A DNA stretch of 56,950 bases from Kiritimatiellia bacterium (GTDB lineage Bacteria; Verrucomicrobiota; Kiritimatiellia; CAIQIC01; Lenti-01): assembly GCA_017527155.1 (NCBI GenBank), contig JAFXQI010000044.1, positions 1 to 56,950 on the forward strand. Reading direction: 5' to 3'. The position numbers and the translations under genes are program-made. The notes beneath the pieces are model-generated. The model searched no databases. It saw only the letters and a program-made list of their open reading frames with translations, and was not told where the DNA came from. This document shows, piece by piece, positions 21,936 to 32,633 of the stretch; position 1 is the first letter of the stretch, and each line of letters starts with the position of its first letter.

Positions 21936-22001
21936 AGCGGACAACGGGATGGATGGAGAACGAACGGCCACCGGAAAGGCCTGGGGCCAGCCGGAGAGGC
22001 G

Positions 22002-22112
22002 GCCGCGATCTCGGATTGGCGGGCCGTGGTCAGGTCGCGCTGGAGCTGGAGGACGACGAAGGGGGTGGATGGGCCGCTGCCGAGTTTCTTCTGTTCGGCG
22101 GAGAGGGTCTCC
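22002..22112 (-). pseudogene. Detached fragment of the TolC-family gene
   Basis: About 100 bp here match 24546-24655 inside the outer-membrane efflux gene with only a few differences. On the minus strand it encodes LSAEQKKLGSGPSTPFV, then VLQLQRDLTTARQSEIAA, the last helix of a TolC-type protein. There is no start or remaining gene around it. It lies between the leader element E5 and the decarboxylase start. It is a recent partial duplication. Confidence 0.85.
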
Positions 22113-24442: not shown

Positions 24443-25873
24443 TCAGGGCTCGGCGGGGGAGGTGTCGAGGTCGAGGTGGTGGCGCTGGAGGAGGGTGCCT
24501 TCGGCGAGGGAGAGGGCGGAGGCGAGGCGGAGGTAGTCGGTCAGGGCCGCGATCTCGGATTGGCGGGCCGTGGTCAGGTCGCGCTGGAGCTGGAGGACGA
24601 CGAAGGGGGTGGATTGGCCGCTGTCGAGTTTCTTCTGTTCGGCGGAAAGGGCGTCTTCGGCGCAGGCGCGGGCTTCGCGGGTCGCCGCGATCTTTTCCCA
24701 GCCGGTGTCGAGGGCGGCGGTGGCGTTCTCGACTTCGACCAGGGCGTTTTCTTCGAGGCGGCGCAGTTCCAGGCGCATGCGTTCGGCGTTGGCCAGGGCC
24801 TGGCGGTGGGCGGCGGAGGCGGCGCGGTTGCCGAGGGGGATGGTGAAGGTCAGGCCGGCGGTCCAGTAGGGTTCGTCGGCGGAGGCGAGTTGGGAGAAGG
24901 CGTCGGAGTAGGTGTCTTCGTCGGAGGCGGCGACGCCGGCGCCGAGGACGAGGTCGAGGGAGGGGAGGGTCTGGTTGCGCCGGTAGTCGACTTCGATGCC
25001 CTGCCGGACGAGGGCGAGCCGCTGGGCGCGGATGTCGGGGCGCAGGTCGAGGGCGAGGTCGCCGGAGGCGGCGGGGTCGGTGGGGACGCGCGCGGGGTCG
25101 AGGGTGTAGCGGGCGTCGATGCGCAGGTTGCGGACGGTGCGCTGGTCGGCGAAGACGAGGGATTTCAGGTCGTTGTGGGCGACGGCGGCGGCGCGGTGGG
25201 CGTCGGAGAGTTCGGCGCGGGCGGTGGCGGCCTGGGAGGCGGCTTGCCGGGCGTCGAGGGCGAAGGCGGTGCCGACGGAGACCTTGCGTTCGGTGTCGGC
25301 GGCGAGCTGCTCGGCGAGGGCAAGGGCTTTTTCGCGGACGGCGATGGTTTCGCGGGCTTGGATGAGGGCATAGAAGGCGGCTTCGACGGCGGCGACGGTG
25401 GATTGGATTTTTTGTTCGAGGGCGAGGGCGGCTTCGTCGGAGAGGGTTCTGGCGGTGGCGATGCGGTAGTGGGTGGCCGGGGTCTTGAATCCGCGGAGGA
25501 GGGGTTGGGTGAGGGTGAGTCCGGCGGAGGCGGTGGTGGTGTCGAAGGGGTTGTTGGCGCGGGTGCCGGAGGAGTCGCCGGCGCGGGCGGAGAGGTCGTA
25601 GGAGAGCCCGTGGAAGGAGGTGTCGCCCTGGAAGCCGGCGGAAAAGGCGTTTTCGTCGGTCTCGGTGCGGGTGGTGGAGAGGACGCCTTCGGAGGTGCCC
25701 GCGGCGGTGCCTTCGGTCTCGGTGCGGGAGCGCTTGGCGCCGAGGGCCAGGGAGGGGTCGTAGGCGCCGGACGCGCCTTCGGCGTCGATGGCCGCGGCGG
25801 TGCGGGTCAGGCGCTGGATGCGGAGGTCGAGGTTGTGCTCGAGGGCGAGGGCGATGCAGTCATCGAGCGCCAT
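24443..25873 (-). CDS. TolC-family outer-membrane efflux protein, body out of frame with its signal peptide
   Basis: This 476-codon frame holds two OEP repeats typical of TolC/NodT-type channels: LDDCIALALEHNLDL at the start, LTLTQPLLRGF, and ending with ALSLAEGTLLQRHHLDL. It lacks a signal peptide. A plausible signal sequence starting at 26088 is in the frame one base away, and the two are separated by three TGACGAG heptamers and five 9-bp repeats. Adding one heptamer would join them into a single reading frame. As assembled, the gene is therefore either off, decayed or misread. It follows the MacB-type permease by position and probably forms the outer-membrane exit of that pump. A 100-bp fragment of it is duplicated at 22002-22112. 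Confidence 0.8.
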   Translation of the reverse strand: MALDDCIALALEHNLDLRIQRLTRTAAAIDAEGASGAYDPSLALGAKRSRTETEGTAAGTSEGVLSTTRTETDENAFSAGFQGDTSFHGLSYDLSARAGDSSGTRANNPFDTTTASAGLTLTQPLLRGFKTPATHYRIATARTLSDEAALALEQKIQSTVAAVEAAFYALIQARETIAVREKALALAEQLAADTERKVSVGTAFALDARQAASQAATARAELSDAHRAAAVAHNDLKSLVFADQRTVRNLRIDARYTLDPARVPTDPAASGDLALDLRPDIRAQRLALVRQGIEVDYRRNQTLPSLDLVLGAGVAASDEDTYSDAFSQLASADEPYWTAGLTFTIPLGNRAASAAHRQALANAERMRLELRRLEENALVEVENATAALDTGWEKIAATREARACAEDALSAEQKKLDSGQSTPFVVLQLQRDLTTARQSEIAALTDYLRLASALSLAEGTLLQRHHLDLDTSPAEP

Positions 25874-26088
25874 GGGGCGCTCGACGACTGCAGTGACGAG
25901 TGACGAGTGACGAGAGAATCGGTGGAATCGATGGAATCGATTGAATCGATTGAATCGATGGGGTCGCCGGCGAGCGCGGGGAGGGCGAGGCAGGTGCAGA
26001 GGAGAAAGGCGCGACAGGATGTCGCACCCCCCAGGAGGGGGCGGAGGAGGGGGCGGAGGGGGGAGGAGGCGGTATGAGGATTTTTCAT
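25807..26088 (-). CDS. Signal-peptide end of the TolC-family gene, frameshifted
   Basis: It starts 1 nt past the stop of the permease (ATG 26088). It encodes a signal peptide (CRAFLLCTCLALPALAG, about residues 25-41), then IDSIDSIDS from the 9-bp repeats, then LVTRHSSLQ from the heptamers, and stops at 25807 inside the efflux gene in the wrong frame. Part of the signal region (GGATSCRAF) derives from a palindromic repeat at 26008-26028. Confidence 0.65.
   Translation of the reverse strand: MKNPHTASSPLRPLLRPLLGGATSCRAFLLCTCLALPALAGDPIDSIDSIDSIDSTDSLVTRHSSLQSSSAPWRSMTASPSPSSTTSTSASSA
25894..25914. repeat. Three perfect TGACGAG heptamers
   Basis: Units at 25894-25900, 25901-25907 and 25908-25914. 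They lie between the signal peptide and body of the TolC-family gene, where unit number decides the reading frame. Related heptamer runs are at 27336-27363 (GTGAAAA type) and 29070-29097 (GTGAAAA and GTGACAA). Confidence 0.9.
25916..25960. repeat. Five 9-bp repeats (GAATCGATT type)
   Basis: Units begin at 25916, 25925, 25934, 25943 and 25952 and differ only in the last bases. On the minus strand they encode Ile-Asp-Ser repeats, so changes in copy number would not shift the frame. Confidence 0.9.
26008..26028. repeat. Palindromic repeat in the TolC signal-peptide region
   Basis: GGCGCGACA-GGA-TGTCGCACC type hairpin followed by a C-rich flank. Relative to 29205-29225 two stem positions differ and both still pair, so the stem covaries. 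Confidence 0.7.
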
Positions 26089-26089
26089 T

Positions 26090-27310
26090 TTATTCATAAC
26101 GGAGGGCTTCGATGGGGTCGAGGGAGGCGGCCTTTCGGGCGGGGTACCAGCCGAAGAAGATGCCGATGGCGGCGCTGAAGAGGAAGGAGAGGGCGATGGA
26201 TTTGGCGGATACGAGGGTCGCCCAGCCGAATTTGATGGATACGATCTTGGCGGCGGCGCATCCGGCCGCGATGCCGATGACGCCGCCGCCGATCCCCAGC
26301 ACGACGGCCTCGACCAGGAATTGCAGCAGGATGTCGCTCCCGCGCGCCCCCACCGCCATGCGCAGGCCAATCTCGCGGGTGCGTTCGGTGACGCTCACGA
26401 GCATGATGTTCATGATGCCGATCCCCCCCACCAGCAGCGACACGCCCGCGATGGCGCCGAGCAGGACGGTCATGGTGGAGGCGGTGGAGGTGGCCATTTC
26501 GACCATGTCCTGCTGGTTGCGGATGGTGAAGTCGTCCTCCTTGCCCTCCCGGATGCGGTGGCGCTCTCGCAGGAGGGCCGTGAGCTGCGCGATGACGTCC
26601 TGCGCGCGGTCGGCGCTCTCGGCCTGCACGGTGATGGACCGGAAGGAGGTCCCGCCGGTCAGCCGCACCATCGCGGAGGTCCACGGGACGAGGATCATGT
26701 CGTCCTGGTCGTCGCCCATCATGTTGGCGCCCTTGGGGCGGAGGACGGCGACGACTTCGTAGGGGGCGTTCTTGATGCGGACGATCTGCCCGACCGCCCC
26801 CGCCGCGGAGCCGAAGAGGTTGGACGCGACGGTGTTGCCCAGGATGGCCACCTTGGCCGCGCGCGCGACGTCGGTGGCCGTGAAGGGGGTCCCTTCGGCG
26901 ACGGTCCAGGCGCGGATGGCGACGTAGTCTTCGCTGACGCCGTACACGGTGGTGGAGACGTTGTCGGCGCCGGCGGTGGCCTGGGCGGTGCCGCGCAGTT
27001 CGGGGGTGGCGCCGGTGATGCCGGTGATTTCGGAGCGGATGGCGGCGTAGTCTTTCTTGGTCAGGGTCGGGGCGGACCCCCAGCCCATGTGGACGCGTCC
27101 GGAACGGGCGGCGCCGGAGAAGACCATGAGCATGTTCTGGCCCATCTGGGCGATGGAGTTGGCGACCTGCGCCTTGGCGCCGACGCCGATGGCGACCATG
27201 GCGATGACGGCGCCGACGCCGATGATGATGCCGAGCATCGTCAGCCCCGTGCGCAGCGGGTTGCGGCGCAGGGCGCGCAGGGCCATGGTCCAGGTGGCGG
27301 TGAATTTCAT
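26090..27310 (-). CDS. MacB-type ABC transporter permease
   Basis: This 406-residue protein has the MacB/FtsX layout: one N-terminal transmembrane helix (about 20-42), a large periplasmic domain (about 50-275) and three C-terminal helices. Family motifs include ALRALRRNPLRTGLTMLGIIIGVGAVI, SVTERTREIGLRMAVGAR and the C-terminal YPARKAASLDPIEALRYE. It should work with the MacB-type ATPase (30535-31380) and MacA-type adaptor (31392-32633) in tripartite export. Its ATPase partner is now about 3.2 kb upstream, with an island between. The first codons and the leader are duplicated at 29006-29118. The start at 27310 fits the family N-terminus and has GAGG upstream. Confidence 0.92.
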   Translation of the reverse strand: MKFTATWTMALRALRRNPLRTGLTMLGIIIGVGAVIAMVAIGVGAKAQVANSIAQMGQNMLMVFSGAARSGRVHMGWGSAPTLTKKDYAAIRSEITGITGATPELRGTAQATAGADNVSTTVYGVSEDYVAIRAWTVAEGTPFTATDVARAAKVAILGNTVASNLFGSAAGAVGQIVRIKNAPYEVVAVLRPKGANMMGDDQDDMILVPWTSAMVRLTGGTSFRSITVQAESADRAQDVIAQLTALLRERHRIREGKEDDFTIRNQQDMVEMATSTASTMTVLLGAIAGVSLLVGGIGIMNIMLVSVTERTREIGLRMAVGARGSDILLQFLVEAVVLGIGGGVIGIAAGCAAAKIVSIKFGWATLVSAKSIALSFLFSAAIGIFFGWYPARKAASLDPIEALRYE

Positions 27311-27386
27311 GGGGAGGGCCTCATTTCAGGAGTGAAAAGTGAAAAGTGGAAAGTGAAAAGATGCGGTGCGCGCCCTGCGGGCGCGG
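27272..27386. repeat. Permease 5' end and leader, original copy of a 115-bp duplication
   Basis: It covers the first 13 codons of the permease and its leader, with heptamers GTGAAAA and the GCGGTGCG...CCTGCGGGCGCGG tail. A diverged copy in the same orientation lies at 29006-29118. Confidence 0.8.
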
Positions 27387-27392
27387 GAAAAG

Positions 27393-27547
27393 TTTTCCAA
27401 TGATTGGAAAAAAAGTTTCCAATGGTTGGAAAATTTCGGCGGATTTTTCCAATGATTGGAAAACTTTTTTCCAATGGTTGGAAAAACGGGCGGATTTTTC
27501 CAATGATTGGAAAAATTTTTCGGCGGTTTTCCAATGATTGGAAAAAA
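27393..27547. repeat. TTTTCCAA-N3-TTGGAAAA palindrome array, copy 2 (six units)
   Basis: Palindromes start at 27393, 27415, 27445, 27467, 27496 and 27527. The central triplets run TGA, TGG, TGA, TGG, TGA, TGA, and the spacing alternates 22, 30, 22, 29 and 31 bp. The first four thus form two TGA-TGG pairs separated by a CGGCGGA-like spacer. It lies in the permease leader region at one edge of the island. Confidence 0.9.
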
Positions 27548-27587
27548 TTTTCGGGGCGGGGGAAGCGCAAGGTCGGCGCAAGGGGAA

Positions 27588-27737: not shown

Positions 27738-28838
27738 TCATTCCATTCCAGTGAAGGAGACAAGCAAATCCAGATTCCGCTGGGGGCAACGGAAGCGATA
27801 CAAATGGCCTGTTTCCAAGATGGACGCGTCATGGTTTCCCCGCGGAGCCGGTTGGACATGTCCGCCGGTTCCCGCGAGGAATGCGTTTTGCCCGTTCTCC
27901 CCGAGGTCGTCGAAGGTGTTCGGCCAATAGACGAAGAAGGCTTCGAGATGGTTTTCGTCCCGGTAGGTCAGGCGCAGGTCGTCGAACTGTCCGAATTGGT
28001 CGGGTTCGTCCTTGACGACCAGCCGGGCGTTCCCGTCCAAGCATACCTGCTTTTCCTGCCAGTCGCCCGATTGGTCGAATCGGGCAAGGCGGAACGTGGC
28101 CGTTTTCGTCCGGATGAGACTGATGGGGTCCAAGGTTTCCCGCCGGGATGCGTCGAAAGGTTGCCGGACGGCCATGCATCCGGGAGCGGAAATCCTCCAT
28201 TCGTAGGGCATGGGGGTGAGACCGTGCAGTTCGATTCTTCCACCTTCGCTTTCCATCTTGATGGCCAAAGCCTCTATGGGAGCATCGCCGTCGTAGCCGT
28301 CGTCGTGCCAGGTGGAAGGCAGTTTCCCCGTCCAGAGTTCCACCCGCGCGGAGGGGATTCCTTCGGGGAGGACGAGGTCAAGAGATGCGTCAACGGTGTT
28401 TTCCTCGGGCAAGCGGCGCAAGGTTCGTTCTCCCAAGTCCAAGACGCTGTCGAATGTGCCGTCATCCATTGGCGGCAGGGTAACGTCCAGCGGTTCGAAG
28501 CCGTGTTTCACGAAGCGCAAGGTGCGGCCCGCGTACAACGGCGCGACGAAAATACCGTGTTCGGCGAAAACTGCCTTGGTGGCCACGCCATCCAAGGAGT
28601 CTCCCGCGCCTTCCACCCGCAGTTTTCCGATGACGACCCGACCTTCCCCGCAGTGGAGGTCCCGGTGATGCTCCCATGCCCATTGATAGAGAGGGGCGAA
28701 TGATTTGCTGGCGTGGTAGTCCACCGGCGAGTCTTTTTCCGGCAGAGGACCGGTGGACATGCACAGAGAGGAGCGACCACAGAATGCAATCATGGCCAAC
28801 AAGAACGGCAAGAGGACTGTTCTGGGGTGTTTTTTCAT
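27738..28838 (-). CDS. Secreted hypothetical protein with carboxypeptidase-regulatory-like segments
   Basis: This 366-residue protein has a signal peptide (MKKHPRTVLLPFLLAMIAFC, cleavage near 28). GKLRVEGAGDSLDGV...FVAPLYAGRTLRFVKHGFEPLDVTLPP (about 70-130) resembles the beta-sandwich repeat that decorates many secreted proteins. No catalytic motif is seen. The start at 28838 has AAAGGAA upstream in a 71-bp leader that is nearly the same as that of the gene starting at 30404. Base composition is visibly less GC-rich than in neighbouring genes, which suggests transfer with the island. Function is unknown. Confidence 0.75.
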   Translation of the reverse strand: MKKHPRTVLLPFLLAMIAFCGRSSLCMSTGPLPEKDSPVDYHASKSFAPLYQWAWEHHRDLHCGEGRVVIGKLRVEGAGDSLDGVATKAVFAEHGIFVAPLYAGRTLRFVKHGFEPLDVTLPPMDDGTFDSVLDLGERTLRRLPEENTVDASLDLVLPEGIPSARVELWTGKLPSTWHDDGYDGDAPIEALAIKMESEGGRIELHGLTPMPYEWRISAPGCMAVRQPFDASRRETLDPISLIRTKTATFRLARFDQSGDWQEKQVCLDGNARLVVKDEPDQFGQFDDLRLTYRDENHLEAFFVYWPNTFDDLGENGQNAFLAGTGGHVQPAPRGNHDASILETGHLYRFRCPQRNLDLLVSFTGME

Positions 28839-28909
28839 GGTGTTCCTTTGGTTCATGGGTTTCCCGTTCCGTTGCCGGTGGAATTCAAGGGGACGCGCCT
28901 GCGGGGCGG
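28839..28909. repeat. 71-bp leader repeat, copy 1
   Basis: Upstream leader of the gene starting at 28838. It matches 30405-30475 at about nine of ten positions and contains the ribosome site AAAGGAA and an upstream in-frame ATG. Confidence 0.85.
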
Positions 28910-29005
28910 CCGGGAAGCGGCAAACAAGGGGCATCTTCATCCTTCCTCCTTGCAAGTAAAAACCGGGCGGCTGTTTGTAATAATCCGGGTAGCCGCCACA
29001 TGTTT

Positions 29006-29118
29006 GGCGCGCAGGGCCATGGTCCAGGTGGCGGTGAATTTCATGGGGAAAGCCTCGTTTCGTGAGAGAAAAGTGAAAAGTGACAAGTGACAAGTTGCGG
29101 TGCGTCCTGCGGGCGCGG
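29006..29118. repeat. Duplicated permease 5' end and leader, remnant copy
   Basis: It encodes MKFTATWTMALRA on the minus strand from 29044, identical to the permease start, then diverges into unrelated sequence. It includes heptamers GTGAAAA/GTGACAA. It lies inside the island and no longer heads a gene. Confidence 0.85.
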
Positions 29119-29709: not shown

Positions 29710-30404
29710 GGGGTGCCTTCGGGGAGCGGGGTTTCCATGCCGGAATCGGGGCCGCGCAGGAGCGGCTCGACGTTGTGCAGGAAGAGCATGTACACTTCGC
29801 CCTCCGGCGACAAGGCCGCCTCGTAGAGGAAGCCGCAGGCGTCGCCGAGTTCGAGGAGGATGTCTCTGAGCGGTCGGTCCGTGGCGTCCACCGTGATGGG
29901 TTTGTCTCCCGCCCCGTCGATTGCGTGGATCGATATGCCAATCTGCTGGCAGAGCGTCCAATTCAAGTCCGCCATCGGGGCGCCGGCGGATTGGGCCGTG
30001 ACCGGTCGGTCGAAAAAGGGATGCGCCAGGGCGAGCCGGTTGAAATGGTTTACCGAGTGCATGGAGAGCGACACGTTGAGAATCATCCGCTCTTGGCTTG
30101 TTGGTTGCGTGGCGCTTCGGGTTGCCCGGATTGCTTTGCCCTCGTCCCGGAAGCGGCGCACGTTTTCGAGAAGGTTGTCCCGGGATTCGTATGTCAAACG
30201 CTGCGACTTTCGGAAGGTTTCGAAGCGTTCCCCGAAAGCGGGCTCGCCTTCCGAAAGGGCGTCCGCGATTTCGTCGAGCATGGTCCGCATGGAAGCCGCG
30301 TAGTAGCTCTGGTCGTAGAGTTGGGTGATGCCAACGGAGACGGCAATGGTCACGGGCAGGATAAGTGCGAGAGGGACGAGGATGGAGAAGCGATGGGGGT
30401 TCAT
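29706..30404 (-). CDS. Membrane-anchored hypothetical protein
   Basis: This 232-residue protein has an N-terminal anchor or signal ([21 protein letters not shown]). A charged helical region and a C-terminal part with [27 protein letters not shown] follow. That last part resembles the short secretin/STN-like segment in which a residue set is scored as 'D.PL.ILL...'. The start at 30404 has AAAGGAAG upstream. The leader repeats that of the gene at 28838. It heads a two-gene unit inside the island. Function is unknown. Confidence 0.65.
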
Positions 30405-30475
30405 GGTCTTCCTTTGGTTCATGGGTTTCCCGTTCCGTTTCCAGTGGAGTTCAAGGGAACGCACCTGCGGGGCGG
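30405..30475. repeat. 71-bp leader repeat, copy 2
   Basis: Leader of the gene starting at 30404, matching 28839-28909 in the same orientation. Confidence 0.85.
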
Positions 30476-30476
30476 C

Positions 30477-30534: not shown

Positions 30535-31380
30535 TCATGCGGAGGGGGCTTCGTCGGCGAGGAAGTCGAGTTCGCGGGGGAGGCGTTTGAGTTCTTCGGT
30601 GGCGCGCAGGGGGGTGCTTACGCGTTCGTCGCGGACGATGCGGCCGTCGCGGAGGACGATCTGGCGGCGGCAGTACTGGGCGATGTCCGGTTCGTGCGTC
30701 ACCATCAGGATGGTCATGCCTTTGTCGTTGAGGTCCTGGAAGATTTCCATGATTTCCAGCGAGGTGCGGGTGTCGAGGTTGCCCGTGGGTTCGTCGGCCA
30801 GCAGGAAGGAGGGCTCGTTCACCAGGGCGCGCGCGATGGCGACGCGCTGCTGCTGGCCGCCGCTCAGTTGGCTGGGGTGGTGCAGGGCGCGCTTGCCGAG
30901 GCCGACGCGCTGGAGGCACGCGAGGGCGCGGCGGCGCAGGGCGCGGCGGGAGGGGCAGTGGGGGGAGTAGAGCATCGGGAGTTCGACGTTCTCGAGGGCG
31001 GAGGTGCGGGAGAGGAGGTTGAAGCCCTGGAAGACGAACCCGAGGCGCTGGTTGCGTACGCGGGCGAGGCGGTCGCGGTCGAAGGCCGCCACTTGCTCGC
31101 CTTCGAGCCAGTATTCGCCGCCGGTCGGGCGGTCGAGGCAGCCGAGCATGTTCATCAGCGTGGATTTGCCGGAGCCGCTCGGGCCCATGATCGCCACGAA
31201 GTCGCCGCGCGCGATTTCCAGGGATATGGTCCGGCAGGCGTGGACGGAGTTCTCGGCGCCGGATTGGTAGACTTTGTCGAGGTCCACCAGGCGGATGACG
31301 CAGTCGGAGGGGGCGGGGGAGGGGGGCGCGGGGGGCGCGGACGGGGCGGGCTGGGCGGGCTGGGCGGGGGCGGGGGGCAT
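30535..31380 (-). CDS. MacB/LolD-type ABC transporter ATPase
   Basis: This 281-residue ATPase has Walker [11 protein letters not shown]-loop VFQGFNLL, signature [15 protein letters not shown], Walker B FLLADEP and H-loop THE. The sequence is typical of the MacB/LolD/FtsE group. An unusual N-terminal Pro/Ala-rich segment of about 25 residues precedes the domain and could be an incorrect early start, since an internal start near residue 27 is also possible. It begins 11 bp after the MacA-type gene and should drive the permease at 26090-27310. Confidence 0.9.
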
Positions 31381-31391
31381 GGGGCGGATCC

Positions 31392-32633
31392 TCAGCGTCG
31401 CGGCGGGGGGCCGGGCATGAAGGGGGATCCGCCGCCGGAACGCGGCGCGGTGGCGGCCGCGGAGGCGGCGTCGGCGCGGCCGGTGACGACGGGGTCGCCT
31501 TCGGAGAGGCCCGCGAGGACTTCGGTCCAGGTGCCGTCGGTGATGCCCGCCAGGATCGGGGTACGGCGCAGGGCGCCGGTGGCGGGGTCGAGGACGTACA
31601 CGGTCTTGGGGGTGGCGCCGGCGGGGGGCGCGGGCGGGGCGGAGGGGGAGGCGCCGGGGGCGGGGGGCGCGGGGGGCGCGGCGTCGGCCACGGGTTCGCC
31701 TTCGGCGGGGCGGAAGCGCAGGGCCGCGTTGGGCACGCGCAGGGCGCCGGTGCGCTTGGCCGTCACGACGCTCGCGTTCGCCGTCATCCCGGGGCGCAGC
31801 TTGAGGTCGGCGTTCACGACGTCCACGATCGCGATGTAGTTGACCACGTTCTGCGAGGTCACCGGCTCGTAGCGGACCTGGCTGACCGTGCCCGTGAATT
31901 CGCTGTCGGGATAGGCGTCCACCGTGAAGACCACTTCCTGCCCCTCCGCCACGCCGCCGACGTCCGCTTCCGATATCTCCGCCTCGATGCGCATGTCGCG
32001 CAGGTCCTTCGCGAGCGTGAAGAGGACCGGCGTCGTCATGCTCGCCGCCACCGTCTGGCCCACGTCCACCGAGCGCGAGAGGACCATGCCGTCCATCGGG
32101 GAGTAGACGAGCGTCTTGGCGATGTCCACGTTCGCCTTGTCCAGGCTCGCCGAGCGCTGGCGGAGCGAGGCGCGGGCCTTCGCGAGGGCCGCCTCCGTCT
32201 GGTCGTAGTCGGCGTCAGAAAGGAGGTCCGCGGCGCGCAGCTCGCCCGCGCGGCGGAAGTTCGCCTCCGCCAGCTTGAGGTCGGCGCGGGCGCTCTCCAG
32301 CTCCGCTTCGCACTGCTCGCGGGTGCGGAGGTAGGAGGAGTCGTCCAGGCGCGCGAGCAGCTGGCCGTTGGTCACCGCCGAGTTGTAGTCGGCGAAAAGC
32401 TCCACGATCTTGCCCGACACCTCGGAGCCGACGTCCACCGTCCGCACCGCCCCGAGCGAGCCGTTGGCCGTGACGGTCTGGGCGATCTCGCCGGCGGCGG
32501 CCGCGGCCGTCTTGTACTGGACCTTGCCGCCGCCGAGCGCCGCCCCGCCGCGCCCCGCGTACCACCACCACGCGCCAAACCCCGCCGCGCCGAGCAGCAG
32601 CAGGACCAGTACCGTCTTGGAAAACTTTTTCAT
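31392..32633 (-). CDS. MacA-type periplasmic adaptor (membrane fusion protein)
   Basis: This 413-residue adaptor has an N-terminal signal anchor (about 5-25), a biotinyl-lipoyl half (TVTANGSLGAVRTVDVGSEVSGKIVELF), a helical hairpin (about 95-170) and the second lipoyl half with YSPMDGMVLSRSVDVGQTV. A beta-barrel and membrane-proximal region follow. A Pro/Ala-rich insertion near 330-350 and a Gly/Pro-rich tail are unusual. It should link the inner-membrane MacB to the TolC-family channel. The start at 32633 has GGAGG upstream. Leader element E6 with a 29-codon ORF lies upstream. Confidence 0.9.
   Translation of the reverse strand: MKKFSKTVLVLLLLGAAGFGAWWWYAGRGGAALGGGKVQYKTAAAAAGEIAQTVTANGSLGAVRTVDVGSEVSGKIVELFADYNSAVTNGQLLARLDDSSYLRTREQCEAELESARADLKLAEANFRRAGELRAADLLSDADYDQTEAALAKARASLRQRSASLDKANVDIAKTLVYSPMDGMVLSRSVDVGQTVAASMTTPVLFTLAKDLRDMRIEAEISEADVGGVAEGQEVVFTVDAYPDSEFTGTVSQVRYEPVTSQNVVNYIAIVDVVNADLKLRPGMTANASVVTAKRTGALRVPNAALRFRPAEGEPVADAAPPAPPAPGASPSAPPAPPAGATPKTVYVLDPATGALRRTPILAGITDGTWTEVLAGLSEGDPVVTGRADAASAAATAPRSGGGSPFMPGPPPRR

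Follow-up and report, generated by a model that had tools for sequence, protein, structure and literature searches.

The locus described here raises the question of whether a short heptamer tract inside a TolC-family gene (tolC) acts as a genetic switch, or whether it reached its present position and length in some other way. The gene lies in a window of 56,950 nucleotides, the whole stretch of DNA that was analysed, from a Kiritimatiellia bacterium (genome G000), and in the assembled sequence its signal peptide is out of frame with the body of the outer-membrane channel. An earlier note on this DNA interpreted the tract as a site of slipped-strand phase variation. On balance, and with moderate confidence, we favour a different history, in which a four-unit copy of a dispersed repeat entered the tolC linker and then shrank by one unit; the resulting allele is out of frame and would rarely revert.

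The tolC body (24443–25873, minus strand) occupies a frame of its own without signal peptide, which is open from MALDDC at 25873 down to 24443 and encodes 476 residues that match the Pfam OEP family (PF02321, 2.2e-44). It is located directly downstream of a gene for a MacB-type permease with Pfam MacB_PCD and FtsX domains (26090–27310, minus strand), whose stop overlaps the tolC start ATG at 26097, and the same overlap is found in relatives. Further upstream lie genes for the ABC transporter ATPase of a MacAB-like set (30535–31380, minus strand; Pfam ABC_tran, 5.1e-32) and for an HlyD-type, MacA-like periplasmic adaptor (31392–32633, minus strand; Pfam HlyD_D23, 1.4e-19, and HlyD_3, 3.8e-14). 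The earlier description of the gene as encoding the channel partner of a MacAB system agrees with these Pfam matches and the gene neighbourhood, which identify a MacB-associated OEP gene.

The leader frame (25807–26097, minus strand) starts at ATG 26097, encodes a signal peptide (MNKMKNPH...CLALPALAGDP) followed by five (I/T)DS units, passes through the heptamers and ends at an out-of-frame stop at 25807. The (I/T)DS repeat (25916–25961, minus strand) is built of five 9-bp units and is frame-neutral, altering only the number of triplets as previously proposed. The heptamer tract, read directly on the minus strand, consists of three perfect TCGTCAC units (25893–25913), or, in the CTCGTCA register, of positions 25894–25914 followed by CT. 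Its 21-mer has one match in the window, even with two mismatches allowed, and zero in 100 shuffles. When the unit number was varied on the sequence, one or four units gave a single ORF, and zero, two, three, five or six units gave none. The frame arithmetic of the earlier note is thereby borne out: signal peptide and MALDDC body lie in different frames by translation, three perfect units are present, and a fourth unit, or the loss of two, unites the frames. Its view that the gene is off as assembled also holds, in that leader and body are out of frame in the assembly and in frame in the relatives. The start codon that it gave, ATG 26088, is in the correct frame but is not the conserved start, which is ATG 26097.

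As a non-triplet coding repeat whose unit number sets the frame, the tract has the hallmark of a contingency locus, and phase variation of tolC may be regarded as a reasonable hypothesis. Phase variation by an intragenic heptamer tract has been described for pglE of Neisseria meningitidis, where, as in tolC, a 7-bp repeat lies within the reading frame and the unit number decides the frame (PMC7157529). The tolC tract differs from the pglE tract in having three units and in belonging to a dispersed family, and is a candidate switch only. In the hmw1A gene of Haemophilus influenzae, which encodes an outer-membrane-associated product, tandem heptamers likewise stand close to the gene start, but there the repeat is part of the promoter, counts 11 to 38 units and modulates transcription (PMC8262952, PMC2651432), whereas the tolC tract is intragenic. 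A heptanucleotide screen of H. influenzae used a minimum of three units (PMC2651432), a threshold that the three uninterrupted tolC heptamers reach, and in a review pentamer tracts count as hypermutable from three units upwards (PMC4235727).

Rather than being specific to this locus, the tolC tract belongs to a heptamer family that is dispersed over the genome. Three or more perfect heptamer units occur at 11 places in G000, eight of which have four units, and the reversed control of this perfect pattern gave zero matches in G000. With the unit relaxed to CTNNTCA, at least 46 arrays are listed in G000 (22 with four units, 18 with two, five with three and one with five) and at least 21 in G001, a genome of the same genus (contig CACXEY010000086.1, isolate RUG11196), where 12 have four units; for the pattern CTNNTCAC the reversed control is uninformative, because the reversed form matches the same arrays in a shifted register. 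Many copies carry the left flank ACCGCA(T/AA/CC), and a GC-rich palindrome adjoins some of them. The tolC copy has neither, and judging from the absent ACCGCA flank it may not have arrived as a standard element. The unit-variant order TTG-TTG-TTT-TTG recurs at several unrelated sites, which suggests that whole arrays were copied rather than grown independently. For another palindrome, GCGACATCCTGTCGC, in the G000 leader, the idea of a further dispersed insert was rejected, this palindrome being absent from all the other stretches compared.

Copies within genes that have coding sequence on both sides stay in frame, for example L112, L134 and L011. In this respect the family resembles the Rickettsia palindromic elements, dispersed repeats that are tolerated in frame within protein-coding genes, although its core consists of heptamers in direct repeat and the GC-rich palindrome stands beside some copies only. 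The presence of tandem 7-bp units at many places in G000 and G001 is also reminiscent of the cyanobacterial short tandemly repeated repetitive (STRR) sequences, the subject of a 1997 paper by Vioque. STRRs are small heptamer arrays that are scattered over the genome and are also present within genes. Compared to them, the present family has another host group and probably another sequence, usually has four units per array and is directed at gene starts. Other genera carry dispersed heptamer families of their own, namely TYCAANN, TCCAARG and CTGATCA (G004, G008, G009, G011–G016 and G019), with 20–192 TYCAANN matches per genome in g4 and g6, and only 3 in G006. The sequence of the heptamer repeat thus appears to be lineage-specific. 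Literature searches found no matching report on dispersed heptanucleotides and no report on repeats in Kiritimatiellota.

The number of units in these arrays is largely stable between the two genomes. It is equal in nine of 10 orthologous arrays, a count that includes units with point changes and in which one equal pair aligns by its right flank only. The tenth array, of the CTTTTCA type, belongs to the permease gene leader (27331–27360, minus strand); G000 has four units there, one of them mutated, and G001 has three, which indicates that single-unit changes do occur. By this comparison, the CTNNTCA arrays do not appear to be fast-switching contingency tracts. In one orthologous pair (L117/L149), length and an irregular unit are kept, and all units have exchanged TT for CG at the two variable bases, which resembles conversion of a whole block.

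In G001, the tolC body is 99% identical and there is no heptamer; leader, five (I/T)DS units in a different order, linker and body share one frame. Leader and body are likewise in one frame in all family relatives with a readable 5' end; two loci are cut by contig ends. A second genome of the same species was searched for and none was found, the contig scan giving three loci only. Between G000 and G001, the tolC body has a dN of 0.0092 and a dS of 0.0586 (dN/dS 0.16), and the permease gene a dN of 0.0033 and a dS of 0.0454. These values indicate that the tolC body has been constrained for most of the period since the two genomes split, and hence that the disruption of the frame either is of recent date, is an artefact, or is not a constant feature. 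Gaps relative to G001 are confined to the tolC leader, with no frame-changing gaps in the permease coding region or the tolC body.

The sequence of events that best accounts for these observations would begin with insertion of the dispersed element, usually (CTNNTCA)x4-CT, into the linker that connects signal peptide and channel and is only weakly conserved. Because four is the norm of the family, the tolC insert is inferred to have had four units on arrival. The linker would then have read through in frame as ...DSLVTRHSSLVTAVVERP-MALDDC, with a length similar to that of the G001 linker. Subsequent loss of one unit would have led the leader into its stop and left the body without an export signal. 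An OEP channel without signal peptide would remain in the cytoplasm, and, given this mode of OEP export, the three-unit allele is predicted to yield no exported channel. Growth from one unit to three is a possible alternative route, one unit being in frame. On the favoured account, the three-unit allele would be a recent off state that arose at a low rate and is only incidentally reversible, and not an evolved switch.

True phase variation, in which slipped-strand gain and loss of heptamers would turn tolC on at one or four units and off at three with a useful frequency, is unlikely on this evidence. The frame arithmetic, the precedents of pglE and hmw1A, a unit number at the H. influenzae screening threshold and the continued constraint on the body all agree with it. 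Furthermore, in IMG/VR contigs the CTCGTCA heptamer grows to 17, 8 and 5 units (L166 11268–11391, L164), showing that it can expand in other settings, and arrays of period 7 or 8 recur at the 5' end of tolC in other genera. The latter arrays have other sequences, lie just after the tolC start codon in six relatives (L022–L036) and are all in frame; G006 provides a weak seventh case. On the other hand, the tract belongs to a dispersed repeat of mostly fixed size, orthologous arrays nearly always hold their unit number, the tolC gene of the sister species G001 has no tract, and the known heptamer switches quoted mostly have 6 to 38 units compared to three in tolC. The slipped-strand switching proposed in the earlier note is therefore unsupported.

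An error in the assembly or consensus, the true tract having four units or another in-frame number and tolC being intact, is possible but not favoured, and we consider it quite improbable. Such an error would fit the in-frame arrangement of all relatives, the usual unit number of four and the constraint on the body, and the G000 assembly is fragmented into 114 contigs. Nevertheless, the tract of about 23 bp can be spanned by single reads, and the permease coding region and tolC body, as noted, are free of frame-changing gaps relative to G001. Expression of the three-unit gene in spite of the break, either from ATG 25873 with the array as leader or by ribosomal frameshifting, is very improbable: array copies do often lie 4–20 nt before start codons and ATG 25873 follows the tolC array by 18 nt, but no Shine-Dalgarno-like sequence precedes this ATG, its Met lies within the protein in G001 and G005 and is missing in most relatives, the product would be expected to stay in the cytoplasm, and no frameshift site is conserved in G001.

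The preferred account, a dispersed copy that lost one unit, illustrates that a plausible phase-variation call can arise from a dispersed repeat. For a short non-triplet tract, a genome-wide count and a comparison with a sister species are needed before the label of a switch is applied.

The repeat family itself is a less common finding than the broken tolC frame: it is lineage-specific, usually has four units per array and tends to point at gene starts. Arrays pointing at gene starts outnumber those facing away by 18 to 1 in G001 (p = 7.6e-5) and by 11 to 3 in G000 (p = 0.057), in counts for which some orthologous sites are common to both genomes and coding frames were guessed via GC3. The stronger statement, that no array faces away from a gene start, was weakened by this stricter scoring (11:3, 18:1). 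Several arrays end 4–20 nt upstream of an ATG, and others lie inside the code for a signal peptide (L106, L116, L120 and L125). Special RNA folding of the array was considered and rejected, bare arrays having a minimum free energy of 0 to -0.1 kcal/mol. Tentatively, such lineage-specific, mostly four-unit and gene-start-oriented families might provide unstructured 5' leaders, or N-terminal extensions, that can be copied, and loss of a unit from copies inside a reading frame, as in tolC, would occasionally create heritable off states; this wider proposal is doubtful. If the orientation holds, these arrays would represent a poorly described class of 5'-end repeats by which leaders and signal peptides are remodelled in uncultured bacteria of the gut.

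Several smaller duplications and repeats surround the locus. At the 3' end of tolC, a piece of 107 bp is duplicated downstream (22001–22107 versus 24545–24651, 97% identity). A second copy of the permease leader, including its heptamers, the start codon and the initial codons, lies upstream (27272–27370 versus 29006–29104, 90% identity), and another segment that resembles a leader and contains a gene start also occurs twice (28834–28910 versus 30400–30476, 92% identity). A further CTNNTCA array of the window lies at 29068–29095. Finally, the palindrome TTTTCCAATGATTGGAAAA forms a tandem cluster upstream of the permease gene (27378–27554), which is largely conserved in G001.
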